Source: Verrucomicrobiota bacterium (lineage in GTDB: Bacteria; Verrucomicrobiota; Verrucomicrobiia; Opitutales; Opitutaceae). Taken from it: a DNA stretch of 38,235 nt. The position numbers and the translations under genes are program-made. Position 1 is the stretch's first letter; every line of letters starts with the position of its first letter. Positions 2,355 through 31,832 of this stretch are shown one piece after another. The notes beneath the pieces were generated by a model. The model was not told the origin of the DNA. It saw only the letters and a program-made list of their open reading frames with translations, and did not search any database. The DNA lies in assembly GCA_016209255.1 (NCBI GenBank), contig JACQWL010000596.1, forward strand, positions 1-38,235, read 5' to 3'.

Positions 2355-2367
2355 ACGGGAGACGCTC

Positions 2368-2735: not shown

Positions 2736-2739
2736 GGGT

Positions 2740-2988
2740 ACCGCCCTTATCCACAAATTCGCCCCGATATTGGGAGAACGTTACGAATTCCGAGTTGCGG
2801 GCGTGGTAACGGATCTGCTTTTTCAGGCTCGCGTCCAAGCGCTTGCGCGCCGCCCGTTCGCGATCCCCGGGGGCGCGAAACGACTCCAGTGCCACGATAT
2901 TCTCCACGCTTGGCACAAGGCTGTTGGAAAACCAGCCGCGCGCGGAGCGCACGGCCCACCACGAAGGCAAAGCCGGCGGTACGGGGGA
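2740..2988 (-). pseudogene. Minus-strand coding remnant downstream of a TBDR gene
   Basis: Directly after the stop of the receptor gene at 2993, a minus frame shows about 75 percent GC at third codon positions and protein-like composition (GWFSNSLVPSVENIVALESF, RKRLDASLKKQIRYHARNSE, FVTFSQYRGEFVDKG). The competing plus frame over the same bases has much lower third-position GC. No ATG or ribosome binding site is present in this frame, and past about 2738 it becomes the antisense of the frameshifted plus-strand gene. I read it as an internal or 3' fragment of a deleted gene. The family is not recognised. Confidence 0.4.
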
Positions 2989-2992
2989 CGCT

Positions 2993-6838: not shown

Positions 6839-8092
6839 TCAAAGCCACCGCTCAAACCACGCCCAGGCATCACCCTGGCGCGCGGCGCTGAATTCGTGCG
6901 GCCGGTCCTCGATCACGCTCCTGAAACGTTCGGGCACGCCGGCCTTCGCATAGCATCGGGCGAGCTTGCCGTGCGCGGCGTGAACGCCTTCGAGCTCGAA
7001 GAGCCGGTCCTGCGTGCCATTAATCACCATCAGCGGCGTCGGCATGGCAAGCGAGGCAATGTCCGGATGATCCATATGATGATACATGCCAGGGATGATC
7101 TTGGTGAAACCGATCCCGCGGATATGCCGGGCGACCTGGTTCGGAAACGAACACATCCAACTGCTGATGACCGCTGCTTTTATTCGATTATCCAGGGCGG
7201 CCAGATAGGTGCTGCGCAACCCGCCGATACTCTGCCCGACGCAGGCGATCCGACTCGGATCCACCTCGGGTCGGGTGACGAGATAGTCCACCGTGCGGAT
7301 GTCATCCCACGCAATGATGCCGACCCAACTGACCCCCGCGCAATACAGGATTTTGGCGACGATTTCCTCGTCCCGGTTACTGCGATTGTTGAACTCCTTC
7401 ACCCGCTCGCTGCTCATGTCCATCCGCCGCTCCTTCCACTCGGCGGGATCATCATCGAGCACCACACGCCGTTCTCCCCAGTAGAACATATCGATCGCGA
7501 TGACGACGTAACCGCGTCGCACGAGTTCGATGCCGTAGGCCTTGCCGCTGTAGCCGCGATCACGGATGACTTTGAGGGACGGATGGATCGCATCGCTCGT
7601 CTCGACCTCGCGCTCGCGTCCCCACATGTAGTAACCGCCGTGCGAGTGCAGCGCCACGACCGCAGGTGCGGGCCGCTTTGCCCGTTTCGGAATCAACACG
7701 GTCGCCGGCACGCGAAACACCGGCGTGGTGTTGAAGCGAACCTCCTCGCGAATATAATCACCGTAGTCCCGACGGGAAATCACCTCGGCTTGCGGGTCGC
7801 ACTTCGCGGGGGCGTAGTGCAGCAGATCGAGCATTTTCGCCCGGCCCATGGCTTTCCAGGCGGTGAGGTCCGGGTGATCGCGATGCAGAAACGACATCGG
7901 CAGATCCCGCCCCGCCTTCAGCTTCTGAACCACCGCATCGAGTGATCCGAGCTCCGGACCGTTCCGGCCCGACAGCGACACGTTGGCGGCGTCCTTTGTT
8001 TTCGATGCTGGTTCAGCGGCAAAAGCACCGGTGGTTGATGAAGCCGCGACCGCTCCGACGACGGTGGCGATGAAATGCCGGCGGGTGCTCAT
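6839..8092 (-). CDS. Tat-exported alpha/beta-hydrolase, acetyl esterase-like
   Basis: The 417-residue protein starts with a twin-arginine-type signal (STRRHFIATVVGAVAA, cut near AFA-AE). The hydrolase fold shows APAVVALHSHGG (oxyanion region), a nucleophile elbow G286-Q-S288-I-G, a candidate acid D362 (INGTQDRLF) and a candidate base H399 (EDRPHEF). This layout matches the acetyl xylan esterase/dienelactone hydrolase-like group often found in verrucomicrobial polysaccharide loci, which removes acyl groups from glycans. It probably works in the periplasm. It lies 13 bases after the beta-helix gene, so the two are co-transcribed, and is the last gene before the STN1/TBDR1 unit. Substrate specificity cannot be read from the sequence. 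Confidence 0.8.
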   Translation of the reverse strand: MSTRRHFIATVVGAVAASSTTGAFAAEPASKTKDAANVSLSGRNGPELGSLDAVVQKLKAGRDLPMSFLHRDHPDLTAWKAMGRAKMLDLLHYAPAKCDPQAEVISRRDYGDYIREEVRFNTTPVFRVPATVLIPKRAKRPAPAVVALHSHGGYYMWGREREVETSDAIHPSLKVIRDRGYSGKAYGIELVRRGYVVIAIDMFYWGERRVVLDDDPAEWKERRMDMSSERVKEFNNRSNRDEEIVAKILYCAGVSWVGIIAWDDIRTVDYLVTRPEVDPSRIACVGQSIGGLRSTYLAALDNRIKAAVISSWMCSFPNQVARHIRGIGFTKIIPGMYHHMDHPDIASLAMPTPLMVINGTQDRLFELEGVHAAHGKLARCYAKAGVPERFRSVIEDRPHEFSAARQGDAWAWFERWL

Positions 8093-8105: not shown

Positions 8106-11100
8106 CTACTTTTTGATCATGTCCGCAAACGCTTCCGGTTGCAGGCCTATGCTGCGTCTCACGACTGCGGGATTGGTGGCGAAAAGGTCGGGAAAATCGA
8201 GCGGGACTTCGGTGCTGACGAACTTGTCGATGGGGAACGCGGGCACTTTCGCGGGGTCGAGGCGCTTGAAGATCGCAAACTGCGGGTCGAGCACGACCGA
8301 ATCGGTGGGAGCGACGCGTTTCTTATAGTCGGGCAGTGTCATGCGCGTGTGGCCGAGGATCTTGCCGTCCTCCTTGAAGTTAATGATCCAGTAGAGCGTG
8401 CGTTCGGCTTCGGGGGTGCGCAGGAAGTAGCAGTTGTTGCGATCGATGATGGCTTCCTGGTTGCCGAAGGACATGAAGTGGATGTTGCTCTTGGCTTTGA
8501 AGGCGCTGCTATCGCAGATGATGTTGCTGGTGAGCGCCGCGGGGGTGCCGAGCTTCACGGCCTCGATCATATGGCTGAGGAAGACGCAGTGTTCGACGCG
8601 GAAGCCGGGACAATTGGTCACTTCCATGCCGTCGGAGCCGCGAATGATCACGCAGTTCGACACGAGCAGATCGGTGCTGTCTGCACCCATGAGCAGGCCG
8701 CCGGAGTATCCCGCACCGCGTCCGTCCCAAAACAAGCGACGCAGCGTGACGTGGCTGCTTTGATTCACAGTGATCACGCGCATCGAAGTGCGGCCCTGGC
8801 CGCCCATACGAAAGCCATCGAAATAAAAGCCATCCACTTCGATGTGGCTCTTGCCATTGATAACGAACGCGGTCTCGATGCGCCTGCCGCTGCCATCAAG
8901 GATGACTTTTTCGCCGGGGATGCTCATGAACTTGATTGGGCGCCCTTCGACTCCGGTGCCACGCACGCGGACCTTTTCAATGTAAGTGCCTCCGGCGACC
9001 ATGATGGTGTCTCCAGGTCTGGCCTGCGCAGCGGCCTGACCGATGGAGCGCCAGGCGTTTCCGCGCGTCAGGCCCGAAGCCGCGTCACTGCCACCCGCAG
9101 CGACATAGAGCGTCCTGGGCGCGGGATCGGCCGCCTCCGTCGTGAACGTGATGGCCTCATACTTCGGGTCCACAACCTCGCCAGGGCCTTGATCATCCAG
9201 CGGGTAGATGAGCTGGGCCGATGTGAGCTTGAAATAATAAGTCGTGCCCGGTTTTAAGCCAGTGAGACTGAAGCTGCGGAAGGTGTCCGCATGGTTTGTG
9301 ACCTTGTAGGCGGCCTTGATCTCACACGCAGGCGTCTCGCCCCAGGCGATGCCGGACATTGATCCCCGCGACATCTGCCACTCGATGTTTGCGGTGGTGG
9401 CAGTGACGGAGTGAAGCGTCGGAGCCGTCATGCGCAGCGTGTTCGACATGAGATCCTGGTGAAGGCCCAGACTCCTGCCCAAGGCTCCACCGATAACGAG
9501 CGCGATGCGATCCGTCACTTCAGGAATGCCATCACGCATCGTGTAGACCGGCTGCAACTCGCGGGCGTAGATGTCCTGCGATGCCTGCCGCACCTCGGCC
9601 AGCGACATCGCTTTGCCGCCCGCCCTCCAAGCTTTGCCGGGGTCCGCGTAGCTGTTGTAGTCGCTGTATCGGATTGCCGACGTCGCCTCTCCATCGGTGC
9701 GGCAGGCGACCGCCGGGCCGTGCTGGTTGTCATAGACGTTGCTGCTCAGCTCCACTCCCGAGCAGCCGTCGAGCACCACGCCAGCCTGCGCAAAGCGGGT
9801 GAACTCGCTGTGCGTAATCGTCAACTCCGTGCATCGGCTCGCATGCAGCGCGCTGTCCTGGGCGAAGAAACGACAGTTGTTGAAGCGTACCTTCCCGCTC
9901 GCGGTGGCGGTGACGGTGCGGGCGAAGTTCAGTCGCTCAAACTGGACGCCGTGACTGCCCTCCACTTTGATCGAGCCCGGGATCAAGACCCGCGCAGTGC
10001 CGCGAGCGCGCAACGAGATCGGTTCCGCGCCTGCCTTGCCGCCTTTGACCGTGACATCGCCTTCATAGATGCCCTGCTCAAAGTAAACCGTGTCGCCGGG
10101 ACGCAGTTCCTTCGCCGCTCTTGCCAGTGTCTTCCACGCCGCCTTCACCGAGAGACCATCGGCCACATCGTCACCATCCGGTTTAACATAGAAGACATCT
10201 GCCTGATAGGGGAACGGCCCGCGATCACTCCCATCCGGAGCACTGCCGCGCAGCGTGGAAGTCGATTGAAGTCGGAAATCGAAGTTGAGCGGGTCGGCGA
10301 ACTCCTGGTCCCGAATCACGCGCTCGAAGTTCAAACGGATCGAAGTGTCCGTGCCTGCCGGCTGATTCTCCACGTAGGTGTTCTTGAATCCGATGATCGA
10401 ATGCTTCAACCGCCCGCGCGTAGGCAGATAGCTCAGCGCCACGCAGTCGCGCACATCGGAGATCTCACCCATCTTGCCGCCTTTGATGCCGAGATCGACC
10501 ACGTTGCCCCAGCCCATGGATTTCTCGATGAGTCCGTAGCCTTCACCGCCATAAAGGCGGACTCCCACGCCGCACTTGTAGGCCACGCAGTTGCGTAGCG
10601 TGTCATTGCGGACAGAGACAGCAACCACGCCGCCGCATTCAAAGCCATGGGGCGAAATGTTGCCGTAAGCGACGCAGTTCTCGATCAAGTTGCCGCCCTC
10701 CAGCCCGCTGCGCGTGAGGATGCCACCGCCATTGAGGAAGGCCGTGCAGTGGCGGATCACGCAGTCTTTCGCCTCCTTTAGTACGATGCCCCACGTGCCG
10801 GACTCGGTGTGCCATGTCTGCATGACTGATTTCTCAAAGCCCCGCACCGCGATGCCGTCCAGGAGCACACGCTTCGGCTGCTCCAGCATCATTCCATGAG
10901 CTCCGGCGACGGGAATGCTGTAACGATGCTGCTCGACTGGACGCAGGTCTGAGCTGGAGAGGTAGAGCTTCGCCGCCGCCACATCGTAGTAGAAGCTGCC
11001 GGGCTGGAACTCCACTTCCGCCCGCGTCGCCTGGCCATCGAGTCGTTCCAGCGTATCCACTTCATAAACGGCCTGCACCTCCCCTTTGAAATCCGCTGCG

Positions 11101-11423
11101 AAGGTCCGGCGCGTGCCCGGCACTGGTTTGAATCCGGGCGCATCCACATCACCCCGCAACAGGACCGTGCCGCGCATTTCCGCGCGAATGACCGTCTGTT
11201 GCTCGGCACTGCCAAGACCCTTGCGCACGACCGTTTCGGCATACTCGCCACGACCAATCGTCAGCGTGTCCCCCGGTTGCAGGGCATCCACGCCTTTCTG
11301 AATTGTGCGGAACGCCGCCGCGCGACTCGTCCCCGCATTGGTGTCGAGGCCGTGCTTGCCCACGAAGAACTCCGTGGCCTGCAGGGTGCTGGAAAGGAGG
11401 AGCAGGAGCAGCGGAAGTTTCAT
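8106..11423 (-). CDS. Secreted protein with three parallel beta-helix modules and an FN3-like domain
   Basis: The 1105-residue protein has a signal peptide (MKLPLLLLLLSSTLQA). The same N-terminal cap occurs three times: residues 18-62 (FFVGKHGLDTNAGTS, ALQPGDTLTIGRGEY), 411-455 (YVKPDGDDVADGL, ELRPGDTVYFEQGIY) and 771-816 (LYVAAGGSDAASGL, QARPGDTIMVAGGTY). Each cap is the DUF1565-type start of a right-handed parallel beta-helix and is followed by helix rungs rich in N-C and V-x-x-C ladders (CVIRHCTAFLNGGG, NLIENCVAYGN). An FN3-like domain sits at about 668-765 (TANIEWQMSRGSMSGIAWGE, LTGLKPGTTYYFKLTS). Beta-helix proteins of this type are often polysaccharide lyases or glycan-binding proteins; catalytic residues cannot be fixed by eye. 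It follows the sialidase-like gene by 44 bases in the operon. Confidence 0.8.
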   Translation of the reverse strand: MKLPLLLLLLSSTLQATEFFVGKHGLDTNAGTSRAAAFRTIQKGVDALQPGDTLTIGRGEYAETVVRKGLGSAEQQTVIRAEMRGTVLLRGDVDAPGFKPVPGTRRTFAADFKGEVQAVYEVDTLERLDGQATRAEVEFQPGSFYYDVAAAKLYLSSSDLRPVEQHRYSIPVAGAHGMMLEQPKRVLLDGIAVRGFEKSVMQTWHTESGTWGIVLKEAKDCVIRHCTAFLNGGGILTRSGLEGGNLIENCVAYGNISPHGFECGGVVAVSVRNDTLRNCVAYKCGVGVRLYGGEGYGLIEKSMGWGNVVDLGIKGGKMGEISDVRDCVALSYLPTRGRLKHSIIGFKNTYVENQPAGTDTSIRLNFERVIRDQEFADPLNFDFRLQSTSTLRGSAPDGSDRGPFPYQADVFYVKPDGDDVADGLSVKAAWKTLARAAKELRPGDTVYFEQGIYEGDVTVKGGKAGAEPISLRARGTARVLIPGSIKVEGSHGVQFERLNFARTVTATASGKVRFNNCRFFAQDSALHASRCTELTITHSEFTRFAQAGVVLDGCSGVELSSNVYDNQHGPAVACRTDGEATSAIRYSDYNSYADPGKAWRAGGKAMSLAEVRQASQDIYARELQPVYTMRDGIPEVTDRIALVIGGALGRSLGLHQDLMSNTLRMTAPTLHSVTATTANIEWQMSRGSMSGIAWGETPACEIKAAYKVTNHADTFRSFSLTGLKPGTTYYFKLTSAQLIYPLDDQGPGEVVDPKYEAITFTTEAADPAPRTLYVAAGGSDAASGLTRGNAWRSIGQAAAQARPGDTIMVAGGTYIEKVRVRGTGVEGRPIKFMSIPGEKVILDGSGRRIETAFVINGKSHIEVDGFYFDGFRMGGQGRTSMRVITVNQSSHVTLRRLFWDGRGAGYSGGLLMGADSTDLLVSNCVIIRGSDGMEVTNCPGFRVEHCVFLSHMIEAVKLGTPAALTSNIICDSSAFKAKSNIHFMSFGNQEAIIDRNNCYFLRTPEAERTLYWIINFKEDGKILGHTRMTLPDYKKRVAPTDSVVLDPQFAIFKRLDPAKVPAFPIDKFVSTEVPLDFPDLFATNPAVVRRSIGLQPEAFADMIKK

Positions 11424-22400: not shown

Positions 22401-22993
22401 CCAGTGCCGGGATTGCTGCTCGCCGCAGACGCGGCAGGGGTTGGCCCGAGGGTCAGTGCGATCCAACCAAATAAGAGGGCGATGGGATTTTTTCGGTTCA
22501 AGGTTTTCGGTGGTTTTTCAGGAGAAGGAACAATCTCGGAGTTGGAACGGCGAACCGCGGCGGGGCGAACGGAGTCGTTCCGTTCAACGACAAGCGCACC
22601 GGTGGCTGGATCCTGCGTTACCTTGAGCCGTGTGCCGGCGAGCATCTGATCCAAGGCCTCGCGTGGTGTCATTTCCCCGTGGACCGCCGCGGTGCCCACG
22701 CCGTCCACCGCGTCGGCTGCGTACAGGAGCCGCACATCGTCACCGGTCTGCGCCGCGAACTGCCGGAGCGTATCGGTCGCCGAGCCGGCCGGGAGGTCGA
22801 ACCACTTCCGGGTGGAAGCCGCCTGCGCGTTCGGGGGAATCGCGGTGAGGATGAAGGCGCAGAACGACATGAAGATGACGCGTAGTTTTCGGTCGAGGGA
22901 CGCAAAACCACTGGGCCCGCCGGTAGGTTGGGCGGCAATGGCCGCAACCAATACGACGGGATCGACCGGCGATCTCTCTAAGGAATTTTTCAC
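19430..22993 (-). CDS. Signalling TonB-dependent receptor with fused STN domain (TBDR2)
   Basis: The 1187-residue protein starts at a GTG, 12 bases after the FecR stop. Order of parts: signal peptide within about 35-59 (LRVIFMSFCAFILTAIPPNA), STN domain at about 65-135 (FDLPAGSATDTLRQFAAQTG, MTPREALDQML), linker, an internal hydrophobic stretch at 163-191 (PIALLFGWIALTLGP) that aligns with the N-terminal signal peptides of TBDR1 and TBDR3, a carboxypeptidase-regulatory-like domain at about 206-290, a plug (NAAEVVRLLPGIAAW, RYIMVRGIDANLNTVTIDGM) and a barrel ending in VNGSF. It should sense the imported glycan and pass the signal through its STN domain to FecR and the sigma factor encoded just upstream. 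A TTG at 22501 sits where TBDR1 has its ATG. An internal ATG within the first signal (residue 42) is an alternative start. Confidence 0.9.
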   Translation of the reverse strand: MKNSLERSPVDPVVLVAAIAAQPTGGPSGFASLDRKLRVIFMSFCAFILTAIPPNAQAASTRKWFDLPAGSATDTLRQFAAQTGDDVRLLYAADAVDGVGTAAVHGEMTPREALDQMLAGTRLKVTQDPATGALVVERNDSVRPAAVRRSNSEIVPSPEKPPKTLNRKNPIALLFGWIALTLGPTPAASAASSNPGTGSVPQDATEITGQVSNAATRAFLEGASVTVSGTTQTVFTDQEGRYQFKGLPTGPVTLEVSYTGLSTQRILVTVSAEHRTVRNVELTSDIYLMDAFTVAGIREGQAAAITQQRNAPNVKNITAADAFGNVADGNAAEVVRLLPGIAAWNSENESRYIMVRGIDANLNTVTIDGMKTATGVSGANRQTELPGIPIGATQVIEVTKSPTPDMDGDSIGGNINFRPASIFDRTEPRRITFAVSGSIRKVGAGARATAYVSNKITPTYAFGYSNVFGKNQNIGVTVNLSHTVNFAPGGGTMLNGYQATATKPAFMRMLWVSDYHYLERTRSGVDVRLDFKVGENSRLYFSSFYTNFNSEQVFHGGNNTVTAVASAIATLDASGRPIPFEPQFPFGHPNYRPGGFNAAGARVQASILPGFTDKVTELASATYTFTTTPIHTLNERYAFQAGGRHQFRRLELDYTGNYQESPSKNGQKDWNPNATRGYTISVPNTSWRLDGTSTGSVSRRNAIQTGGPDVRDPANWVLSGLSADVSDQGTNIYGGQLNLKLGFSDPVPSYIKTGFKYMSEERYTRRDTKTFTYSGPQGAFLSSFIDTSLPTGVALSKWHPFGMSPRYLDLDKINQYLEKNPQYLTHNAATSLQNVLANDKNAREQVFAGYAMGNMSLGQLSVLGGVRFEKTHLSGETAIQDPRAGLTLTDPIERTRAQWGKRTTVIREYRNVLPGIHFKYTPGRNWLTRASYSQSFGRPSFGSIYPDTRINYEAERITQNNSGVKPQDAANFDVTIERYFEPIGVISAGVFLKEIKNFIFSNVVKIPTGSDNGFDGEYAGWDLATQANGGFARIKGAELNYSQQLSFLPGFWKGFGVFANHTWLTAKGNYGRVTEPTGSALVNFTPRAANAGISYSRGRFYARVNVNYTGTYLRSYNLDPLLRSYQDRRTMVDTKLGFHYSRKLTLFTDVANIFNSKQKWYSGLYREYNTDQRDHGVRVQAGVNGSF
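22421..22507 (-). other. Internal signal-peptide relic inside the fused STN-TBDR
   Basis: These bases encode residues 163-191 of TBDR2: a basic start (KTLNRKN), a hydrophobic core (PIALLFGWIALTLGP) and an Ala-x-Ala end (AASA). They align at protein and DNA level with the true N-terminal signal peptides of TBDR1 and TBDR3. In this protein the stretch lies between the STN domain and the beta domain. Confidence 0.75.
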
Positions 22994-23005: not shown

Positions 23006-24118
23006 TCAGTCACGCGGCGATACCGTCGGCTTTCGCCGCAGCACCGTCGTGCTTTCCCGTCGTTCGATCGCCACGCCGAAATTTAACTCCAGCAGGCGGA
23101 CGAAGGACTCGATGTCATGAGCGGGAAATTTGCCGCCGAAACGTTGGGTGCCCAGGTCGGAATCCTCGATCACCAACTGGTGCCGGTTGTAGCGATTGAA
23201 CTCGGCCACGACCTTGGTCAATGGTTCGGCACTGAATTCCAAGCGCCGGCTTTGCCAGGCCAGGGCGCGGGCCGCCTCGTCCGGCGCCACCGCGACGGGC
23301 GCGATCGCGACGGTCGTGGACACGGTTGTTGGTATGGTCAAACGATGGCCCTGCAGGAGCAGCGGCGCTCCCATGGCGGTCGAATCCGTCGCTGGATCCG
23401 GCGAGGATGGAACGGGTGCAGCGATCGCCGTCGCCGCGGGCGTCAACTTCGGCGCCAACAGGCTGCGACCCGACGCGGCGTCTTCCACCCGCACCTTGCC
23501 TTCCGTGACCAGCACCTCGACGGCGGCGGAATCGCAGCGCACGTTGAACACAGTGCCGACGGCTCGAACATCGACCGGACCCGCCCGCACGACGAAGGGA
23601 CGCGCGCGATCTTTGGCCACCGTGAAGTTCGCTTCGCCGTGCAGCAGGAGAACCCGGCGCTCGGTCGTCGTGAAAGCGACCTTGACCGCGCTCGCGGTGT
23701 TCAGGTGGACCACGGAGCCGTCGGGGAGATCGATCTTCTCGAAGCCGCCGACCGGTGTGCCGGCACTCTGGACCAACGGGGTCGCGGCCGGTTGGACGGT
23801 CGAATCCAATGCGACGAAAGCGACGGTCAGGGCTGCCGCAGCGGCGAGCGTCCCATACACCCATCCCCGCGATCGCCGGTGATGCGACGGCAGCGGCACG
23901 CGTGCGGCCGGGACTTGATCCAGCAGCCCCCACGTCTGCGTGAGTTTGCCAAACATCCGGGAGTGCCGCTCGTCGGCTGCGAGCCAGCGGGCAAACTCCA
24001 CCTCCTGTGCCGGGTTCAACCCACGGTCTCGCCGCACCAGCCACTCCGCCGCAGTCAGTTCGATCGGGTCCAGCCCAGCATCCGTGTCGTCGGAAGACTC
24101 AGGAAATTGCGTTGGCAT
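23006..24118 (-). CDS. FecR-family anti-sigma factor
   Basis: The 370-residue protein has a cytoplasmic DUF4880 segment at about 20-66 (LTAAEWLVRRDRGLNPAQEV, FARWLAADERHSRMFGKLTQ), one membrane helix at about 86-106 (WVYGTLAAAAALTVAFVALD), a periplasmic FecR domain at about 125-212 (IDLPDGSVVHLNTASAVKV, GEANFTVAKDRARPFVVRAG, VRAVGTVFNVR) and a C-terminal STN-like domain at about 285-365 (RRLEFSAEPLTKVVAEFNRY, FGGKFPAHDIESFVRLLELN). It holds the sigma factor at the membrane and receives the signal from the STN domain of TBDR2. ATG 24118 is set by an excellent AAAGGAGG site. It overlaps the sigma gene by 20 bases and precedes TBDR2 by 12. Confidence 0.9.
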   Translation of the reverse strand: MPTQFPESSDDTDAGLDPIELTAAEWLVRRDRGLNPAQEVEFARWLAADERHSRMFGKLTQTWGLLDQVPAARVPLPSHHRRSRGWVYGTLAAAAALTVAFVALDSTVQPAATPLVQSAGTPVGGFEKIDLPDGSVVHLNTASAVKVAFTTTERRVLLLHGEANFTVAKDRARPFVVRAGPVDVRAVGTVFNVRCDSAAVEVLVTEGKVRVEDAASGRSLLAPKLTPAATAIAAPVPSSPDPATDSTAMGAPLLLQGHRLTIPTTVSTTVAIAPVAVAPDEAARALAWQSRRLEFSAEPLTKVVAEFNRYNRHQLVIEDSDLGTQRFGGKFPAHDIESFVRLLELNFGVAIERRESTTVLRRKPTVSPRD

Positions 24119-24656
24119 CGCCGCCTCCTTTGATCATGCCCCGGGCTTCGAGATACTGCCGGCAACGCACGATCCCGATGGAGAGCTGGGCGTTGACCGT
24201 GTGCTCCGAAATCGCGAGTCGTTCCGCGATGTCGCGATAGGAGAGACCATGGAGTTTTCGGAGCGTGAGGATCTCCCGGCAACGCGGGGGCAGGGCCCGG
24301 ATCGATTCGACCAGCAATTCGAGTTCCTGCGCATGACTGGTGGTTTCGGCGGCATCGGGTCTCTCTTCTACGACGGACAAGCACGGGCTTTCAGCTAAGT
24401 CATCGAGCAAGAGGACCCGTTTTCGCCGAAAGAGGTCGAAGGCCGCGTTCCGCGCCGTCTGGAAGAGGTAGGCCCGGGGCTCGGCGATCACGCCAGTGCT
24501 GCGGGCGCGAATCAGCCGCAGGTAAGCCTCCTGCACCAGGTCATCGATGTCTTGCACCGTGGGAAAATGGCGGCGCAGGAAGGCCCGCAATTCGGGCTCA
24601 TGCGGTTGCACTTCCTCGGCGAACCAGCGGGCCTGCTCTGGATTCTGTGGCGGCAT
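24099..24656 (-). CDS. ECF-type RNA polymerase sigma factor (FecI-like)
   Basis: From ATG 24656 the product has 185 residues; a TTG at 24689 would add 11. Sigma region 2 lies at about 20-85 (LRAFLRRHFPTVQDIDDLVQ, EAYLRL, AYLFQTARNAAFDLFRRKR) and region 4 at about 115-170 (IRALPPRCREILTLRKLHGL, SYRDIAERLAISEHTVNAQL). It should direct RNA polymerase to receptor and enzyme promoters when the FecR partner releases it, in the manner of FecI. It is the first gene of the minus-strand operon and the only intact sigma factor in the window, so it may also drive the STN leaders at 6501-6560 and 31084-31143. Confidence 0.9.
   Translation of the reverse strand: MPPQNPEQARWFAEEVQPHEPELRAFLRRHFPTVQDIDDLVQEAYLRLIRARSTGVIAEPRAYLFQTARNAAFDLFRRKRVLLLDDLAESPCLSVVEERPDAAETTSHAQELELLVESIRALPPRCREILTLRKLHGLSYRDIAERLAISEHTVNAQLSIGIVRCRQYLEARGMIKGGGDANAIS
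24124..24131 (-). promoter_or_regulatory. Shine-Dalgarno of the fecR-like gene
   Basis: On the minus strand AAAGGAGG lies 5 bases before ATG 24118, inside the end of the sigma factor gene. It fixes the anti-sigma start and is the strongest ribosome binding site in the window, most other genes here having weak ones. Confidence 0.8.
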
Positions 24657-24715
24657 CAAGCGGAAATGATGATCTAACTGCGCGAGCAACTAAATGCCGC
24701 CGGCCAAGCAGTCCA

Positions 24716-24822: not shown

Positions 24823-26172
24823 TCAAGTGGGCAGGGCGGCCCGGACCACGGCCATCGTTGCCGCCTGCCGCCGTCGAACGAACGTCATCGCCCGTGCGAC
24901 CTTTTGCGCGGCGACGGCGGGCTCGCGATGGATGTCCATCACCAGTTCGGTGAGTCGCGCTCCGGTCATGCCTTCGAGTTCGTGGATCCACTCCGGCAGG
25001 CCGCTATCGGCGAACATCCTGCTCTTGTGCGGATTGTCGGTTGGCACGCGGAGGTGAATCGCCGGCGTTCCCGCCGCCAGCGCGATGATCGGCGAATGGC
25101 AGTCAAGACTGATGACCGCAAACGCCCGCGCGTAGACCGAGGCGGCCTCGTCTGCGATCCAAAACGTGTTCCGCCAGACGACCCTCGATTTCACGTCCGC
25201 CGGGAGCGGGTCCACCAGCTGATCCTTGGCCAAGGGGACCCCGTAGGTCATTTCTGGACACGCCAGCACTTTCAAACCTGTCGTTCGCACCCAATTGACA
25301 ATCAACTCCCGGGCAGCGGCGTGATCGGCCGCCTTGAACGCATTGTTGATCCGATCAACCTCACGATCCTGGTCGGTGGGTGAATAATTGTAGATCGTGT
25401 GGTACGGAGAAAAGCGGTGGCGGGGAATGACACAGAGGAACTTCTTGTTGCCCAGGCCGGCCTGCAGCAGATACCGCTCCGCGCGTGCCTCATCCCGAAG
25501 ATGAAGCGCAAAGGTCGAATCTGGACCAAAGCCAATATTGGGTCCCGTGATGCCCGCCTGCCGGAGGTTCGCCACGGACACACTGTCGCGGCAATAGACA
25601 AACGCGGCCTTCGAGAGCGTGGCGGCGAGTGCGCCGCTGATATTCCCAACGGTCACGCCGTAGATGCCATACGGCTTGTCGGTCGAAGCCCGCCAGACGT
25701 CGACGGGAGCTGAATGGAGTCCGCCGGAACCGACGATGAACAAGTCAGCTTTCTCCATGGCCGCCGCCAGGTCCGGACGCGTCGCCGGTTTTCCGCCATG
25801 CGCGCCGCCCGCCTTGATGATCGTAAGCTTGGGAAAACCGGCGAGGAGCATTCTGCGCACCTCGGGGCTCAACTCCCGCTCATATCCGGTTCGAATGCTC
25901 GGCACCGGCCAAAGCGTGACCCTTACGTCCGGCAGGTGCGTATCCAGCAGGTGGAGCAGTCCCGGCGTGTGGGCGATGTCCCCAATATTGATGCAATGCC
26001 ACGCGTTCGCGATCAGGATGTGTTTGGCCTTGCTCGCTTTGACGGCGGCGAGCAAGGGAACCGCTCCGCCCGCCCATCCGAGCGCGGCGGTGCCGGTGGC
26101 GGCGCGGATCAGAAAGGATCGGCGCGACAACCGGGAATTTCCCGGCGGTGCCGGTGGGATCGGACGATGCAT
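24823..26172 (-). CDS. Tat-exported polysaccharide pyruvyl transferase family protein, copy A
   Basis: ATG 26172 gives 449 residues and a twin-arginine signal (SRLSRRSFLIRAATGTAALG, cut near LLAAVKA). Family motifs: ILIANAWHCINIGDIAHTPG (the N-x-GD-x-A start), LFIVGSGGLHS, FVYCRDSVSVANLRQAG, CVIPRHRFSPYH and SLDCHSPIIALAAGTPAIHL. Known members move pyruvyl groups from PEP onto sugars in the cytoplasm, or act as related GT-B transferases; export to the periplasm is unexpected, where PEP is not available. The longer open frame upstream overlaps copy B and is not used. It follows copy B by 17 bases and ends the operon started at the STN gene at 31083. Confidence 0.8.
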   Translation of the reverse strand: MHRPIPPAPPGNSRLSRRSFLIRAATGTAALGWAGGAVPLLAAVKASKAKHILIANAWHCINIGDIAHTPGLLHLLDTHLPDVRVTLWPVPSIRTGYERELSPEVRRMLLAGFPKLTIIKAGGAHGGKPATRPDLAAAMEKADLFIVGSGGLHSAPVDVWRASTDKPYGIYGVTVGNISGALAATLSKAAFVYCRDSVSVANLRQAGITGPNIGFGPDSTFALHLRDEARAERYLLQAGLGNKKFLCVIPRHRFSPYHTIYNYSPTDQDREVDRINNAFKAADHAAARELIVNWVRTTGLKVLACPEMTYGVPLAKDQLVDPLPADVKSRVVWRNTFWIADEAASVYARAFAVISLDCHSPIIALAAGTPAIHLRVPTDNPHKSRMFADSGLPEWIHELEGMTGARLTELVMDIHREPAVAAQKVARAMTFVRRRQAATMAVVRAALPT

Positions 26173-26189
26173 TGCGGGTTCAGAAATGT

Positions 26190-27566
26190 TCAGGCCGTTG
26201 CCGCTGCCTTCAGCACCTCGACCATGCGGCGCTGCAGCGCGTCCACCCCGGTCATCACGGTCCTCACCTGAGCGTGGGCTCTCTTGGGATCCCGGTGAAT
26301 CTGCTCCAGCCTCGACCAAAGCTCCCGGCCACTCGTCTCATCGGCTTCGAAAATCCAATCGCTCACGCCCACATCGTGGAACATCTGCCCCTTGCATGTA
26401 TCAGTCGGTTGACGCACATAAAACCCCGGCCGGCCGTGGGCCAGCGCAATGATGGGCGAGTGGCAATCCACGCAGACCACCGTCTCCGATTTGGCATAGA
26501 CCGAAGCCGCTTCGTACGTCTTCCAAAACGTGTCCCGCCGCACGACGTTGCGTTTCACGTCCGCAGGCAACCGATCCACCAAAACCTCCTTCGCCATCGG
26601 CACCTGATAGGTCATCTCCCCGCAGGTCAGAACCTTGTTGCCCGTATTGCGCACGTAGTTGACGATCATGTCGCGCACCTTGGCGTGGTCCGACTCGGTC
26701 GTGCGATCGTTGATCGCATCCTTGAGTTCATCCGTGCGGCCCCGCGTTTCGTTTCTCATGCGATAATAGGGCGTATAACGCAGGCGCGGAATGACGCAGA
26801 TGTATTTCCCCTCTTCCAGTCCGTGGGTCTTGCGGAAGGCGTCGCCCAAGACATCGTCTTTCTTCTTCATGCCAAACTGCGAATCCGGACCAAACTCCAA
26901 GATTGGCGTGCGCACGCCCTGCGCCTTCAGGTAATCTCGGGACAGCGTGTCTCGACAAAACATGAACGCGGCCCGGTCGATGATCCCGCGCGTCACGTCA
27001 TCGAGGTGGTTCGATGGCAGTTTTCCGATTCGCGCGCGAAGATTGGCGAGCGTCCCGCCTTCCGGATCGCGGCCGTCACCGAAGCCAGAAACCGGATCGG
27101 TGCTGGTGCCGAACACGCCGTAGGGCTTGCCGGTGAACCGATGCCAGGCCGCCAGATCAGTCCGGGCGCTGAATCCCGAGCCCGATCCGTGCAACAAGAA
27201 ATCCACCTCCGTCCAGGCGGCGGCCAGTTCCGGCGTGCCCGGCTTGTCGTTCTGCACCAGTCCTTCGGCAATTTTCAATTTGGGAAACGACCGGGTCACC
27301 AGCTCCCGCACCCCGTCGGCCAGGGCCCCCGGCCGCGGCCACAGGATCATCTCCGCCTCGGGAAAATATTTTTCGATGAGTTCCAGCGCGCCGAGATAGT
27401 GCCCAATGTCCCCGATGTTGACGTTCTGCCAGGCATTGCGCAGCAGGATCCGCCTCGGCCGGGGGCTCCGCCGCGGCCCCGCGGCGAACGCGGATGAAAC
27501 GACGGTGCCGGCGAGCGCGGCAGCGGCACTCTTGATGAAGTCACGGCGTTGGATTTTGGTCGTCAT
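26190..27566 (-). CDS. Tat-exported polysaccharide pyruvyl transferase family protein, copy B
   Basis: ATG 27566 gives 458 residues and a Tat signal (TTKIQRRDFIKSAAAALAG, cut near AFA-AG). Motifs: LLRNAWQNVNIGDIGHYLGA with NIGD at 50-53, LLHGSGSG, FMFCRDTLSRDYL, FGPDSQFGMKKKDD, CVIPRLRYTPYY and CHSPIIALAHGRP at 368-380. Copies A and B share all of these plus a long block running through LPADVK, TFW, EAASVYA and CHSPIIALA, so they are tandem paralogues that have since diverged. The gene starts 20 bases after the TBDR3 stop. An exported pair of this family linked to an outer-membrane receptor suggests a role in handling imported glycan or in cell-surface modification; the reaction is unknown. 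Confidence 0.8.
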   Translation of the reverse strand: MTTKIQRRDFIKSAAAALAGTVVSSAFAAGPRRSPRPRRILLRNAWQNVNIGDIGHYLGALELIEKYFPEAEMILWPRPGALADGVRELVTRSFPKLKIAEGLVQNDKPGTPELAAAWTEVDFLLHGSGSGFSARTDLAAWHRFTGKPYGVFGTSTDPVSGFGDGRDPEGGTLANLRARIGKLPSNHLDDVTRGIIDRAAFMFCRDTLSRDYLKAQGVRTPILEFGPDSQFGMKKKDDVLGDAFRKTHGLEEGKYICVIPRLRYTPYYRMRNETRGRTDELKDAINDRTTESDHAKVRDMIVNYVRNTGNKVLTCGEMTYQVPMAKEVLVDRLPADVKRNVVRRDTFWKTYEAASVYAKSETVVCVDCHSPIIALAHGRPGFYVRQPTDTCKGQMFHDVGVSDWIFEADETSGRELWSRLEQIHRDPKRAHAQVRTVMTGVDALQRRMVEVLKAAATA

Positions 27567-27586
27567 AGATTGAACGTGGATCCGAT

Positions 27587-30500
27587 TCAAAAGCGGCCTT
27601 GTACACCCGCGACGATCTTGGGCGCCGTCAGGCGGGTCTGGCCCGAGCGATCTTCAAAGGTCAGGTAGTTCTTGTTGAGCGGCTCCGCGGTCAGATTCTC
27701 CACGTCGCAGAAAAGGCTCATCCGCCGCGTGAACGTGTACTTGGTCTTCAGGTCAACCTGCGTCCGCGGGCTTTCATGTCTGAGCAACGCCGGGTTGGTG
27801 GAATTCGACACGAGCCACGTCCCCAGCCAGTTCCACTGCAGCATGACACTGGCCTTCGACCCTCGATAGCTGACCGCGACATTTGCGGTCCGGGGCTTGA
27901 AGCCCGCGACCTGCGTTGAAACGGCCGCTCCGCCATAGTCGCCCTTGGTGGAAAGATAAGTGTAATTGGCATTCAGACCAAATCCGCGCCAGAAACCGGG
28001 CAGAAACGTGAACTGCTGCTGGTAGCTCAGCTCAAGCCCGCGATAGCGGGCGGACCCGCCATTGGCCGAAGTGATGATGTTGTACCCCGCATACTCCCCG
28101 TCAAAACCGTTGTTCGCGCCGGTGGCGACAAACTGGCTCCGATCCTGAAATATGAAGTCGCTGATATCCTTGGAAAATGCCCCGACCGAGATCAAGCCGA
28201 CCGGCTCGAAGTAGTACTCCAGGCTGGCGTCAAAGTTTTCCGAATACTGCGGCTTCAGCGCCGGATTGGAAAAGGTGATGGTCTGCGCCGAGAAATTCAC
28301 CGTCGAACTCGGCATGATGGAACCGAAATCCGGGCGGCCGATGCCGTTGGAGTGACTCAAGCGGGCAATCAGGCCGTTTTTCGCCTCGTACTTGAAATGG
28401 ATCCCGGGGAAGACGTTACGATAGCTCGCCTTGTTCTCCAATCTTCCGGCATACTCCGCCTTTACCCGGCGCTCGGCCTCCGCTGCCGTGACCGTTCCAA
28501 CCCACGCGGCGCGCCGGGCCACTTCCGCGGGCGTCAGGGCCTGCAGCGGCCCGTTGCCATTGGTTCGGGTCTCTTCCATGCGCACGCCCCCGAGGAAGGT
28601 GAGCCGGCCAATCCTGACCTCGCCCATGATATAGGCTCCGCCGACCTCCTCCGTCATTGAGCGCAGATTCGCCAGCGACTGCGTGAATCGGTAGGGCACA
28701 TCCTCCGTCCAGTCGCCCGGAATATTTTGCGCATGTTCCGCCGTCGCGTAGGCGTCGGGAAAGGGTGGATTCACGAACTTGGTGACCTCATCCTTGAAGG
28801 CGTCGACGAGCTCGGAATAGCGCCCGGTCGTGTTGCGAAACTTCGAGATGTTGGCCGTGCCGATGTAATTATAGCGGCGACTGTTGTTCTCCAGCGCGCG
28901 TTCCTGCCGGCGATAATTGAAGCCCGCCTTGAACGCCGTGGGCAGCGACAAATCAAAATCCCGTTTGAGGTTGAAGCGGGCGCCAAGGATCTCGTCCCGC
29001 CCGTTGCGGTTGGGCTGCGTCAGGACAAGGTTCGAGTAGTTCGCGAGATTGGTCATGTCCGGCCCGGTCGTCTGCGTGATGTCGGGATAGGTCAGGCGGC
29101 GACTCCGATCGACGGTCCAGCCGATGTTCCGCAACACGGCGCTCACCGTCCCCTTCGGCTGGTCCTTGTACTTGGCGCCGTAGGGATGGGCATCATACCA
29201 GGTGTCCGACTGGGACCAGCTTGCGCTATAATCGATGACGAAGCGGCCGCCGTCATACTTGTGCCTGACGGATGGTTTGAATTGGTACGTGCCGCCTGTC
29301 TTGTCGACCGTCGTGACCGTCAGGGTGTTCAAGGAATTGGTGCTGGTGAGAACCTCGGTAAAGGTTTCGGTGTATCCCGGACGAATCGTGCCCGTCCCGG
29401 TCCGGTTGCCATTGGCGTCGAAGGTCGCGATTGCCTGCGAGGTCGAAAGGGTGCTCTGTTGGGTGACTTGGGAATCATGCATCCAGCTGTAGGATGAATT
29501 CAAGGTGATGATGGTGTTTTCGCTCAACTTGTAGTCCACCTTGGCACCCAGGGAGAAGCGGCTTCGGGGAGAGCCGATCAGCAGGGTGCTCGCCGAATAG
29601 ACATAGGCGGGGCGGTTCAAGGATGATTGTTGAGCGAGGTCCGATCGGATGTCCGCCGTCGCCTGGACGTGCCAGGTGCCGGTCAGCAGGAGGCCGATGT
29701 TCTTCTTGGCGCCGAGCACATTCGAGTAGGTGAAGTTCAATGACGGCGTCAGGCCCTTGACGGGTTCTTTGTACCATGAGTCGGCCGGGGCCCGGCGACC
29801 CCAGCGGTGGCTGAAGCCGACGGCATAGGAGAAAAACTTGGCATCCGCGCGGTCGAACGCGCTCTTGGTCACCATGTTCACATTCCCGCCCATCGAATCG
29901 GCATCCATGTCCGGCGTAGGCGCCTTGGTCACCTCGACAGACTCAATCAGGTTCAGGGATGTCTGCTCGAAAACAAATCCCCGCCCGGCGTTGGCCGAGT
30001 CCGAGGACGCCACGCGATCACCGTCCATCATGACGGCATTCTGGCCGGAGGCCATGCCGCGGATGGACACTCCCACCACTTCCGATCCGACAAACACCCC
30101 GGTGATGCCGGGAAGTCGTTGCAGGAAATCGCCGACATTTCCGTTGGCCACGTTGCCGAAGGCATCGGTCGCAACCACGTTTTTGACGTTGGCTGCCTGG
30201 CGTTGCAGCGTGACCGCCCGCGCGCTCCCTTCGCGCTCGCCCTCGACGGTGACGGCATCCAACAGATAAATGCCGGACGTGAGAGCGACGTTGTGGGTCA
30301 CGATTTCCCCTGCCGGAACGGCCAGCGACGTCGCCTGTGGATCCAGGCCGGTGTAGGTGACGTCGACCATGGCCGTGCCTGTGGGAACGACGAGCCGGTA
30401 CTGCCCCTGGCGATCGGTCAGCACGAACGCGCTGCTGCCTCTGACGGAGATCCGGGCTCCTTCCAAGAATGCCGTCGTGGCGGCGTTGCTCACTTGCCCG

Positions 30501-30613
30501 ATGATTGTTCCGCCACTGGCAGCGCCGGCGTCGGCACCTCTCGCCGCCGGAATCGGGGCCAGGGCAAACGCGATCCAACCGGTCAATACGGTAATCAGGC
30601 TTCGGGATTTCAT
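27587..30613 (-). CDS. TonB-dependent receptor with separate STN partner (TBDR3)
   Basis: The 1008-residue receptor has a signal peptide (MKSRSLITVLTGWIAFALAP, cut near ARG-AD), a carboxypeptidase-regulatory-like domain at about 36-120 (GQVSNAATTAFLEGARISV, YRLVVPTGTAMVDVTYTGLD), a plug (NVGDFLQRLPGITGVFVGSE, VVGVSIRGMASGQNAVMMDG) and a barrel ending in VAGVQGRF. The plug residues differ clearly from TBDR1 and TBDR2, which suggests a different ligand, while the signal peptide is nearly the same as that of TBDR1. The start overlaps the STN gene stop in ATGA. Downstream lie the two exported PPT-family genes, so this receptor probably feeds or supports their function. Confidence 0.9.
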   Translation of the reverse strand: MKSRSLITVLTGWIAFALAPIPAARGADAGAASGGTIIGQVSNAATTAFLEGARISVRGSSAFVLTDRQGQYRLVVPTGTAMVDVTYTGLDPQATSLAVPAGEIVTHNVALTSGIYLLDAVTVEGEREGSARAVTLQRQAANVKNVVATDAFGNVANGNVGDFLQRLPGITGVFVGSEVVGVSIRGMASGQNAVMMDGDRVASSDSANAGRGFVFEQTSLNLIESVEVTKAPTPDMDADSMGGNVNMVTKSAFDRADAKFFSYAVGFSHRWGRRAPADSWYKEPVKGLTPSLNFTYSNVLGAKKNIGLLLTGTWHVQATADIRSDLAQQSSLNRPAYVYSASTLLIGSPRSRFSLGAKVDYKLSENTIITLNSSYSWMHDSQVTQQSTLSTSQAIATFDANGNRTGTGTIRPGYTETFTEVLTSTNSLNTLTVTTVDKTGGTYQFKPSVRHKYDGGRFVIDYSASWSQSDTWYDAHPYGAKYKDQPKGTVSAVLRNIGWTVDRSRRLTYPDITQTTGPDMTNLANYSNLVLTQPNRNGRDEILGARFNLKRDFDLSLPTAFKAGFNYRRQERALENNSRRYNYIGTANISKFRNTTGRYSELVDAFKDEVTKFVNPPFPDAYATAEHAQNIPGDWTEDVPYRFTQSLANLRSMTEEVGGAYIMGEVRIGRLTFLGGVRMEETRTNGNGPLQALTPAEVARRAAWVGTVTAAEAERRVKAEYAGRLENKASYRNVFPGIHFKYEAKNGLIARLSHSNGIGRPDFGSIMPSSTVNFSAQTITFSNPALKPQYSENFDASLEYYFEPVGLISVGAFSKDISDFIFQDRSQFVATGANNGFDGEYAGYNIITSANGGSARYRGLELSYQQQFTFLPGFWRGFGLNANYTYLSTKGDYGGAAVSTQVAGFKPRTANVAVSYRGSKASVMLQWNWLGTWLVSNSTNPALLRHESPRTQVDLKTKYTFTRRMSLFCDVENLTAEPLNKNYLTFEDRSGQTRLTAPKIVAGVQGRF
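30575..30599. repeat. 25-base direct repeat, copy 2
   Basis: Identical to 5993-6017 in TBDR1; both encode the signal-peptide core of their receptor. The two copies are 24.6 kb apart in the same orientation, so recombination between them could delete most of the cluster. Confidence 0.8.
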
Positions 30614-31083
30614 GGTCTAGGTGCTATTGTTTTAGTGGAAGATTGAAGGTCCGCTGCCGGGGCCGACGCGGACAAATTGCCGTTCCGCGGATTCGCGTTG
30701 GCGGTCGGCAAGATCGCCAAGGCACCAGTTTTTTCGTCCTGCCGCACGGACAACGCGGTGCGGAAAAACATACGCCCAAGCGCCTCGCGTGGGGTGAAAT
30801 CGCTCTGCACTGCGTTGGTCTTCACCCCGGCAAGATGGTCGGCCTTGTAGATTAACTGTTCGCCGGCTTGGGCAAAGAATCGCTTGACGGCCGTAAACGC
30901 GTCCCCGGCCGAAATATCGAAAGGCTTCTTCGCCCCTCTCTCCTGCTTCGGCGGATTGGCGGACGGCGTCATGGCGCGGACTGGGGGACTGGCGACAAAG
31001 CCCATCATCAACCCGCACAGCACGACGAACGCGCCATGCGCCGTGCGGCGCAGGCGTGGAGGTTTTTTTGCGGTGGTCGTCAT
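30610..31083 (-). CDS. Stand-alone STN domain protein, second copy
   Basis: The 157-residue protein is a close paralogue of the STN protein at 6021-6500: signal segment GAFVVLCGLMMGFVASPPVR, STN domain with FDISAGDAFTAVKRFFAQAG, EQLIYKADHLAGVKTNAVQ and DFTPREALGRM, then an Asn/Ala-rich tail. Its TGA overlaps the TBDR3 ATG by four bases, which points to translational coupling. In the known signalling systems this domain contacts FecR; here the neighbouring FecR gene is broken, so it would need another anti-sigma factor, such as that at 23006-24118. The ATG is supported by the leader shared with the other copy. Confidence 0.85.
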   Translation of the reverse strand: MTTTAKKPPRLRRTAHGAFVVLCGLMMGFVASPPVRAMTPSANPPKQERGAKKPFDISAGDAFTAVKRFFAQAGEQLIYKADHLAGVKTNAVQSDFTPREALGRMFFRTALSVRQDEKTGALAILPTANANPRNGNLSASAPAADLQSSTKTIAPRP

Positions 31084-31180: not shown

Positions 31181-31832
31181 CTACGGGACGGCTACGCGCA
31201 GGATTGTGGCGTCCTTTCCCTGTTCCGCGACGATGCCGAAATTGGACTCCAGCATCCGCACGAAGCCGGCGGCATCGTCGGGCCGGAACGTGCCGCCAAA
31301 GCGCTGGGTGGCTAGAGCCGTGCCGGTGATGATGAGCTTGCGGTGATTGTAGCGGTTGAACTCCGCGGCGATTTCCTCGAGTGGCACGGAAACAAAATCC
31401 AGCCGGCGCTCCTGCCAGGCCAGTGCGCGCTCGATTTCGACCGGCGGCACGGGCGCGATTTGAACCGGGCGCACCGCACTGGTCCCGGCGTCAAAGCGGA
31501 CGACCAGTTTTTCCCCGGCGGTGAGCACCGGGGGTTTGCTTGCCGAGGGCCGGGCACCGGGGCTTGAAGTCGGGGAAAACGCGCGCGGCAGGCGGGCCCG
31601 GCGCTTCGGGGCCGCGTTCCGCTTTCCGATCTCCCCGCTCCGAATCCACCTGGACTTTCCCCTCGGTGACGAAGACCTCAATCGCCTCCGAGCGCAGCCG
31701 GATGTTAAAGACCGTCCCCACCGCCTGCACGTCCCCGCCGCCGGCACTGACGACAAAGGGGCGGCTGGGATTCTTCGCGACGGTAAAGTGGGCTTTGCCG
31801 CGGGCGAGCGAAGAGAAAATGCGGCCGGATTA
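31181..31832 (-). pseudogene. Truncated and frameshifted FecR-family anti-sigma factor
   Basis: In one minus frame (to about 31560) the sequence reads RGKAHFTVAKNPSRPFVVSA, VQAVGTVFNIRLRSEAIEVF and VTEGKVQVDSE, matching residues about 160-212 of the intact FecR at 23006. It then shifts to a second frame that reads GEKLVVRFDAGTSAVRPVQI, ERALAWQERRLDFVSVPLEE, IAAEFNRYNHRKLIITGTAL and FGGTFRPDDAAGFVRMLESN, the C-terminal STN-like domain. A TAA at about 31831-31833 closes the first frame upstream, so the DUF4880 domain, the membrane helix and the start of the FecR domain are all gone, as is any sigma gene. It ends 97 bases before the STN gene. A sequencing indel could explain the frameshift but not the lost 5' end. 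Confidence 0.8.

Follow-up and report, generated by a model that had tools for sequence, protein, structure and literature searches.

Two Tat-type proteins of the polysaccharide pyruvyl transferase family in a TonB receptor operon of Opitutaceae: tentative candidates for exported depyruvylases

We analysed a stretch of 38,235 nucleotides from a Verrucomicrobiota bacterium of the Opitutaceae (contig JACQWL010000596.1; hereafter the window, at its full length), with the focus on an operon that joins a TonB-dependent receptor (TBDR) to two proteins of the polysaccharide pyruvyl transferase family (PPT; PF04230), here called PPT-A and PPT-B. Genes for an STN-domain protein, the receptor and the two PF04230 proteins lie head to tail between 31083 and 24823 on the minus strand with spacings of -4, 20 and 17 bases, and the gene order, coordinates and spacings of an initial annotation made from the sequence alone are reproduced. 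Both PPT proteins carry N-termini of the twin-arginine translocation (Tat) type. The longer listed open reading frames (ORFs) of the PPT genes open at an upstream TTG; for the coordinates we used the ATG before the twin-arginine motif. The operon comprises the following features.

30610..31083, minus strand: STN-domain protein, first gene of the operon, 157 amino acids; 4-base overlap with the TBDR gene; homologue in the matching place in the related locus L006
27587..30613, minus strand: TBDR of the TonB-Xanth-Caul subfamily, 1008 amino acids; Pfam barrel and plug, NCBIfam TIGR01782
26190..27566, minus strand: PPT-A, PF04230 protein with a Tat-type N-terminus, 458 amino acids, ATG start; PF04230 match, AlphaFold2 model with a GT-B fold
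27480..27566, minus strand: signal region of PPT-A with QRRDFI, from the sequence, end placed by eye
24823..26172, minus strand: PPT-B, PF04230 protein with a Tat-type N-terminus, of a subfamily other than that of PPT-A, 449 amino acids, ATG start; PF04230 match, AlphaFold2 model with a GT-B fold
26044..26172, minus strand: signal region of PPT-B with SRRSFL, from the sequence, end placed by eye

The receptor barrel scores 125.1 bits (Pfam cut-off 27) and TIGR01782 scores 439 bits (cut-off 310). The STN protein is matched weakly by Pfam STN, at 18.4 bits against a cut-off of 28.4, and by the FecA N-terminal part in NCBIfam at 22 bits.

The assignment of both exported candidates to the PPT family and fold, already made in the initial annotation, was confirmed by PF04230 matches above the Pfam cut-off of 25.3 bits (67.2 bits for PPT-B, 42.1 bits for PPT-A) and by confident GT-B models (PPT-A: pLDDT 94.1, pTM 0.90; PPT-B: pLDDT 89.5, pTM 0.86). 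Foldseek searches with either model returned GT-B enzymes, with UDP-GlcNAc 2-epimerases and glycosyltransferases on top; the fission yeast enzyme Pvg1p (5AX7) was absent among the best 50 matches, and against viral models WcaK-like pyruvyl transferases stood at ranks 2 and 3. A profile comparison with 30 ordinary PF04230 proteins, a biased set made of 28 high-scoring proteins from other Verrucomicrobiota genomes, WcaK and one pSymB protein, gave a probability of 95.9 and an E-value of 5.6e-9 over 321 columns. The equivalog models of CsaB and WcaK were not reached (PPT-B: 21 bits against 213.1 for CsaB and 18.2 against 399 for WcaK; PPT-A: no match). Sequence searches of solved structures found nothing with PPT-B or WcaK as single queries, and with the family profiles found WD40-repeat, designed-propeller and other chains, taken as spurious, and no PPT.

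PPT-A and PPT-B are 40-43% identical, share an identical CHSPIIALA block and have a common block that reads CRDTLS or CRDSVS; both blocks had been pointed out in the initial annotation. We regard the two as old paralogues that belong to different subfamilies. A recent tandem duplication of the window pair was considered and rejected, PPT-A and PPT-B falling into separate starred groups of a quick tree, which was built without bootstrap and has long outgroup branches. More than one PPT gene is present in 19 loci, with two genes overlapping by 4 bases in L059-L062. Adjacent pairs are 36-46% identical in 14 of 16 cases, the others being L005 (59%) and L017 (62%). The genome from which the window comes (G000) has four PF04230 matches, that is, two pairs. 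The second of these, at 2080-3450 and 3693-5060 of locus L005 (contig C238), with the mutual identity of 59% already given, starts 12 bases past a receptor gene that is cut off by the beginning of the contig.

To collect relatives, one genome per species was scanned with an alignment of these four proteins, and the best 80 of at least 559 relatives were retained; all taxon shares refer to these 80. They originate from Opitutaceae, other Verrucomicrobiota, Acidobacteriota (many of them Bryobacterales), Planctomycetota and Bacteroidota, the latter represented by Pedobacter, Desertivirga, Fibrisoma, Hymenobacter and Dyadobacter. Pedobacter hiemivivus and Fibrisoma montanum, the latter with two copies, are carriers available in culture. 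Among 105 PPT ORFs, called like all genes in our scripts by a home-made procedure, 7 were fragments or had no NIGD; of the remaining 98, 58 are less than 78% mutually identical (set A2), and all 58 match PF04230 at E<=0.01. The tree has 98 family rows of its own, a separate set consisting of the 58 members of A2 and 40 more. The relatives constitute a distinct branch of PF04230, encountered here in four phyla. A family gene at E<=1e-30 was found in at least 35 of 288 genomes of Verrucomicrobiota, at least 1 of 247 of Bacteroidota and at least 2 of 149 of Acidobacteriota; these are lower bounds, with 5, 6 and 11 candidates scored per genome, and each draw includes a centre genome chosen as a carrier. 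The distribution looks patchy, and five Verrucomicrobiota genomes of the same class (G254, G217, G066, G187, G199) contain at least 5 family genes each.

The motifs QRRDFI in PPT-A and SRRSFL in PPT-B are situated about 42-45 residues ahead of NIGD, and in the models the first strand comes after low-confidence helices (7-19 and 17-32). The Tat-type signals before NIGD, a central claim of the initial annotation, are thus seen as motifs with a hydrophobic stretch, and they recur in relatives: of 105 ORFs, with the four of the own genome counted in, 84 have the strict twin-arginine pattern ahead of the fold, and a looser pattern is found there in 74 of 98 tree rows, which argues that the twin arginines of the window pair are not a chance occurrence. 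Rows without a signal begin at the fold. It is very unlikely that the signals do not serve export and that the proteins are cytoplasmic or held in the membrane. Such an explanation could appeal to the curated Tat models in Pfam, which remain below cut-off for both proteins (TAT_signal for PPT-A, 19 against 22.7 bits; UCR_Fe-S_N for PPT-B, 16.8 against 24 bits), and to the own genome, an 85%-complete assembly in which no TatC match was found. It is opposed by the recurrence of the twin arginines before the fold, by the abrupt start of the signal-less rows and by the presence of TatC in 30 of the 31 genomes that the family search covered; the own genome is the exception, with two TatA matches of its own.

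Twenty further Verrucomicrobiota members, most of them weaker-scoring, include 2 with twin arginines, 2 of Sec or lipoprotein type by eye, listed below, and 16 with no obvious signal, and all 20 keep the aligned Arg205, Glu367, His369 and Lys392 whatever their signal type.

L143:5686-6969: Sec- or lipoprotein-like member, by eye
L147:6079-7356: Sec- or lipoprotein-like member, by eye

On the tree, the label Tat changes at least 7 times, with 3 changes forced by starred branches. The family thus seems to change compartment with its residues unchanged, and dependence on a cofactor loaded in the cytoplasm does not look probable. Export with a bound cofactor had been one option of the initial annotation; for phosphoenolpyruvate (PEP) we consider it unlikely, because PEP would be consumed at each turnover and because relatives that are signal-less or Sec/lipoprotein-like keep the aligned residues.

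In the numbering of PPT-A, R205 is present in 97 of 98 members (one being unreadable) and H369 in 97 of 98. By hhalign and two joint alignments these residues correspond to R183 and H337 of WcaK, both invariant in all 30 ordinary members. We take them as the equivalents of CsaB R148 and H308, the CsaB numbering being assigned by motif, since R183 is the only Arg of WcaK that is invariant across the 30 and since CsaB and WcaK have in common R-x-H and a 20-residue spacing to a Lys. The accessible part of the CsaB study identifies R148 and H308 as critical for PEP binding by mutation, and in the same part R306 was docked but not mutated (PMC10435577). The Arg two residues before the His (R306 in CsaB, R337 in Pvg1p) is replaced by an acid at position 367 in all 98 members, Glu in 90 and Asp in 8. 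The equivalent position in the 30 ordinary members is occupied by Ser (24), Arg (3), Phe (2) or Thr (1), and Glu/Asp at 367 ([ED]-x-H) is the signature of the family. K392 is invariant (98/98) but in three alignments lies 1-3 columns off WcaK K357 (equal to CsaB K328), after a longer loop. Hence, as regards the PEP-binding residues brought up in the initial annotation, Arg and His are aligned and kept, and the Lys has no aligned counterpart. Altogether D53, R205, E317, E/D367, H369 and K392 are near-invariant polar residues; three cysteines considered as a metal site are less uniform in A2 (C204 in 39 of 58, C315 in 56 of 58, C368 in 45 of 58). The acid at 367 could protonate a ketal oxygen.

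The association with receptors was assessed from the closest genes upstream in the same orientation, at most three of them, with gaps of at most 400 bases. Among the 24 scorable loci labelled Opitutae, 18 have a TonB receptor upstream; both loci of the own genome have one too, which makes 20 of 26, compared with 21 of 402 control genes of these loci. A receptor is found in 2 of 6 loci of other named Verrucomicrobiota, and 4 of the 12 Bacteroidota loci have SusC/D no more than three genes away; for Acidobacteriota (22 loci) and Planctomycetota (4 loci) the profiles detected neither. Of a further 20 Verrucomicrobiota loci only L086 scored, and it probably represents one contig with L024 (both 5947 bases) and stands outside the 26. 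Directly upstream in 12 scored loci of the five genomes with multiple family genes, the receptor profile matched none. All receptor counts are lower bounds, as the profile is insensitive to acidobacterial outer-membrane proteins (1 of 9 in one cluster was recognised). Indeed, Pfam identifies in L037 an OMP_b-brl_4/Plug protein that lies 90 bases ahead of the PPT gene and shares its orientation, which brings Acidobacteriota to at least 1 of 22, and a divergent outer-membrane protein in L048; other acidobacterial upstream genes encode a histidine kinase (L049), a polyprenyl synthetase (L034) and an acetyl-CoA hydrolase (L011).

Several Opitutae loci have the order sigma-FecR-receptor-PPT, with or without a second PPT. 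The full order STN-TBDR-PPT-PPT, which the initial annotation had proposed to look for in relatives, is repeated in L006; with a free-standing STN gene it was seen only in the window and this locus, and more widely the arrangement is TBDR-PPT or TBDR-PPT-PPT. The proposed pairing of a receptor with PPT thus holds in Opitutae, holds in part in Bacteroidota and is rare elsewhere. Treating it as a rule for the whole family was tried and rejected, receptors being rarely upstream outside these two groups. Given their place in the operon, PPT-A and PPT-B might be non-catalytic exported glycan-binding proteins that pass ligands to or from the receptor, the PPT cleft binding acidic sugars: SusD-like or other receptor partners often sit in this position, and the two members of a divergent pair could each recognise another portion of the same glycan. 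The near-invariant polar residues and the apparently cytoplasmic members favour catalysis, and we regard a purely binding role as improbable, a little more so than the PEP-dependent transfer discussed below.

An additional twin-arginine protein of about 455 amino acids lies between the receptor and PPT on four Opitutaceae-type contigs (L007:1813-3180, L028:8553-9926, L032:8504-9868 and L040:5276-6679). It is no PPT, and its members in L007 and L028 have no Pfam match; its repeats look like a beta-propeller and may resemble oligogalacturonate lyase (polysaccharide lyase family PL22).

Neighbouring genes were scanned for three groups (61 of 61, 97 of 97 and 110 of 115), each tally comprising the first 25 of 75 to 149 families; for acidobacteria and planctomycetes (101 of 126 chosen) single proteins only were scanned. 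The Bacteroidota neighbours (n=61) include SusD (4), GDSL esterases (4), beta-helix proteins (4), a GH29 (glycoside hydrolase family 29) fucosidase, an alginate lyase and a sulfatase, and single-protein scans added GH88 in a Pedobacter and a Cytophagaceae locus, as well as GH28 and GH3. In Verrucomicrobiota the neighbours include GH123, sulfatases, melibiase, GH35, BNR proteins and LacI regulators, together with 2 group-1 glycosyltransferases among 110, and 2 WbsX proteins and 2 nucleotidyl transferases among 97. In locus L100, a gene for an unsaturated uronyl hydrolase of the GH88 type shares 4 bases with the PPT gene, which has the same orientation (8246-9487 and 9484-11052). Several of the neighbours are of enzyme types for acidic and acylated glycans (GH88, GH29, alginate-lyase- and chondroitinase-like proteins, GDSL). 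The Pedobacter and Desertivirga loci combine a fucosidase, uronic-acid enzymes, an acyl esterase and PPT, and these gene sets fit exopolysaccharides like colanic acid or FucoPol. Polymers of this type contain fucose, glucuronic acid, acyl and pyruvyl groups.

These data bear on the possibility that PPT-A and PPT-B are true PEP-dependent pyruvyl transferases acting outside the cytoplasm, with PEP delivered by some exporter or carried out bound to the enzyme. Fission yeast offers a precedent, as its lumenal PPT Pvg1p uses PEP in the Golgi and the transporters Pet1p/Pet2p supply it, according to the accessible part of the paper (PMC4872226), and the PEP-site Arg and His are kept in our family. 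We nevertheless consider it improbable, as no biosynthesis cluster or PEP exporter stood out among the 25 families listed per tally, the residues are common to signal-less and Sec-type members, one bound PEP would suffice for one turnover, and position 367 carries an acid where the characterised enzymes have Arg.

In the window itself, all called genes from 31083 down to 2993 are on the minus strand and include four TBDRs. The following features, all outside the operon, were identified around it.

31190..31808, minus strand: decayed FecR-like gene in two pieces, upstream of the STN gene; tblastn with the L006 homologue
24099-24689, minus strand: extracytoplasmic function (ECF) sigma factor, Pfam Sigma70_r2/r4; downstream of PPT-B, heads the next receptor unit
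23006-24118, minus strand: FecR, Pfam FecR at 73.4 bits; downstream of PPT-B, heads the next receptor unit
19430-22993, minus strand: TBDR with its own STN domain, Pfam
17972-19420, minus strand: Gfo/Idh/MocA oxidoreductase with a twin-arginine N-terminus; NCBIfam glycoside 3-dehydrogenase at 142.9 bits (cut-off 750)
8106..11423, minus strand: right-handed beta-helix protein, chondroitinase B-like, possible lyase; Beta_helix at 64 bits, Chondroitinas_B at 53.3 bits (cut-off 24)
6839..8092, minus strand: alpha/beta hydrolase, esterase-like, with a twin-arginine N-terminus; Abhydrolase_7 at 74 bits, AXE1 at 27.8 bits

The same-strand region also holds a SUMF1-type protein, DUF6807 and a BNR protein; no glycoside hydrolase family was found among the window proteins scanned. 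Receptors and glycan-degrading enzymes occur in one gene run, as in a polysaccharide utilisation locus, and we read the region 31083-2993 as one of glycan uptake and degradation. The Gfo/Idh/MocA protein beside another receptor suggests periplasmic sugar oxidation in that region. A URO-D-like protein (1191-2354, plus strand; 35.8 bits against a cut-off of 23.9) is located near the far receptor. In the window, the anti-sigma FecR gene found ahead of the operon in L006 has decayed, and the four operon genes are open. The tblastn matches cover only residues 174-230 and 290-376 of the L006 homologue, and no sigma-factor match was found beside the pieces (31190-31808). The sigma-FecR pair at 23006-24689 has 53% and 42% identity to L006.

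The most economical reading of the predicted exported PPT proteins is an enzyme of pyruvate ketals working in the degradative direction; it is suggested by the export signals carried by most members, the catabolic settings, the retention of two PEP-site residues and one position that is always an acid. Of the options of the initial annotation, a different reaction is the one that fits best. We tentatively favour, at less than even confidence, PPT-A and PPT-B as Tat-exported periplasmic enzymes that hydrolyse pyruvate ketals off an imported glycan. Both proteins would fold in the cytoplasm and then take the Tat route to the periplasm, where they would act on oligosaccharides imported by the adjacent TonB receptor. 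The anion-binding core of pyruvyl transferases would be partly kept and run in the catabolic direction, without a need for PEP: pyruvate ketals would be hydrolysed off the sugars of an acidic exopolysaccharide, and glycosidases and esterases would then complete the breakdown. The two divergent copies may handle two ketal positions or two sugars. The extension of this reading to the entire [ED]-x-H branch of PF04230 in four phyla, i.e., a transferase scaffold that became an exported degradative enzyme, we hold to be on the unlikely side.

A number of observations weigh against ketal hydrolysis. No family member has a known substrate, the ketal being suggested by family resemblance, and none of the neighbours points by its name to a pyruvylated substrate. 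A PEP transferase would be expected to retain the Arg and His as well, the third PEP-site residue, CsaB K328, lacks an aligned equivalent, and with Ser prevailing at the position of 367 in ordinary members, a simple change of Arg into an acid is too simple a description. An upstream receptor is rare beyond Opitutae and Bacteroidota; some of the genes next to acidobacterial copies have housekeeping roles (polyprenyl synthetase, carbamoyl-phosphate synthase, acetyl-CoA hydrolase, histidine kinase), and in other Verrucomicrobiota the surroundings are mixed and contain a few glycosyltransferases. An alternative is an exported catabolic enzyme whose reaction does not involve pyruvate, the GT-B/PPT scaffold serving as a glycosidase, lyase, epimerase or phosphate-independent transferase on the imported glycan. 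In its favour, Foldseek ranks UDP-GlcNAc 2-epimerases and glycosyltransferases first, the neighbours are catabolic yet varied, [ED]-x-H is absent from the 30 ordinary members, and the PEP-site Lys is not aligned. The near-invariant Arg and His of the PEP site suggest a similar anionic ligand instead. We consider such a reaction almost as likely as ketal hydrolysis.

Among known systems, CsaB of Paenibacillus alvei and Pvg1p are similar in the PF04230 family, a GT-B type fold and the positions taken as CsaB R148/H308. CsaB uses PEP and serves cell-wall polymer synthesis, according to the accessible part of its description (PMC10435577). The proteins reported here differ from both enzymes in their Tat-type signals, their uptake operons and Glu/Asp in place of CsaB R306 and Pvg1p R337. 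WcaK of E. coli colanic acid synthesis likewise belongs to PF04230, and its R183/H337 align with R205/H369; in contrast, it starts at the fold without a signal and sits in a biosynthesis cluster. The PvGal-ase ORF1119 of Bacillus sp. HMA207 and the xanthan lyases specific for pyruvylated mannose (PL8) also take part in pyruvylated-glycan catabolism but belong to other families, and in the accessible parts of the sources they release the pyruvylated sugar with the ketal left on (PMC6090015, PMC12827396). Another comparison is offered by the window's own twin-arginine Gfo/Idh/MocA protein at 17972-19420. Tat-exported glucose-fructose oxidoreductase-like enzymes of that family carry tightly bound, recycled NAD(P). 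They too represent a cytoplasmic-fold family sent out by Tat; however, NAD(P) is recycled there, whereas PEP would be spent in one turnover.

Searches of open-licence PubMed Central papers found no description of a ketal-removing or periplasmic depyruvylating enzyme, nothing that links PPT to Tat or twin-arginine signals, to SusD or to polysaccharide utilization loci, and, for PPT combined with TonB-dependent or Verrucomicrobi, only papers unrelated by title and the start of the abstract. The statement of the initial annotation that no described system pairs a glycan receptor with exported PPT agrees with this, none having been found in the same literature. If the tentative assignment is true, a depyruvylase family would supply the missing step in the breakdown of pyruvylated glycans. 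The PF04230 branch with export signals in glycan-uptake operons offers concrete candidates that are easy to express, and it is a caution to annotators who would name these genes biosynthetic transferases.

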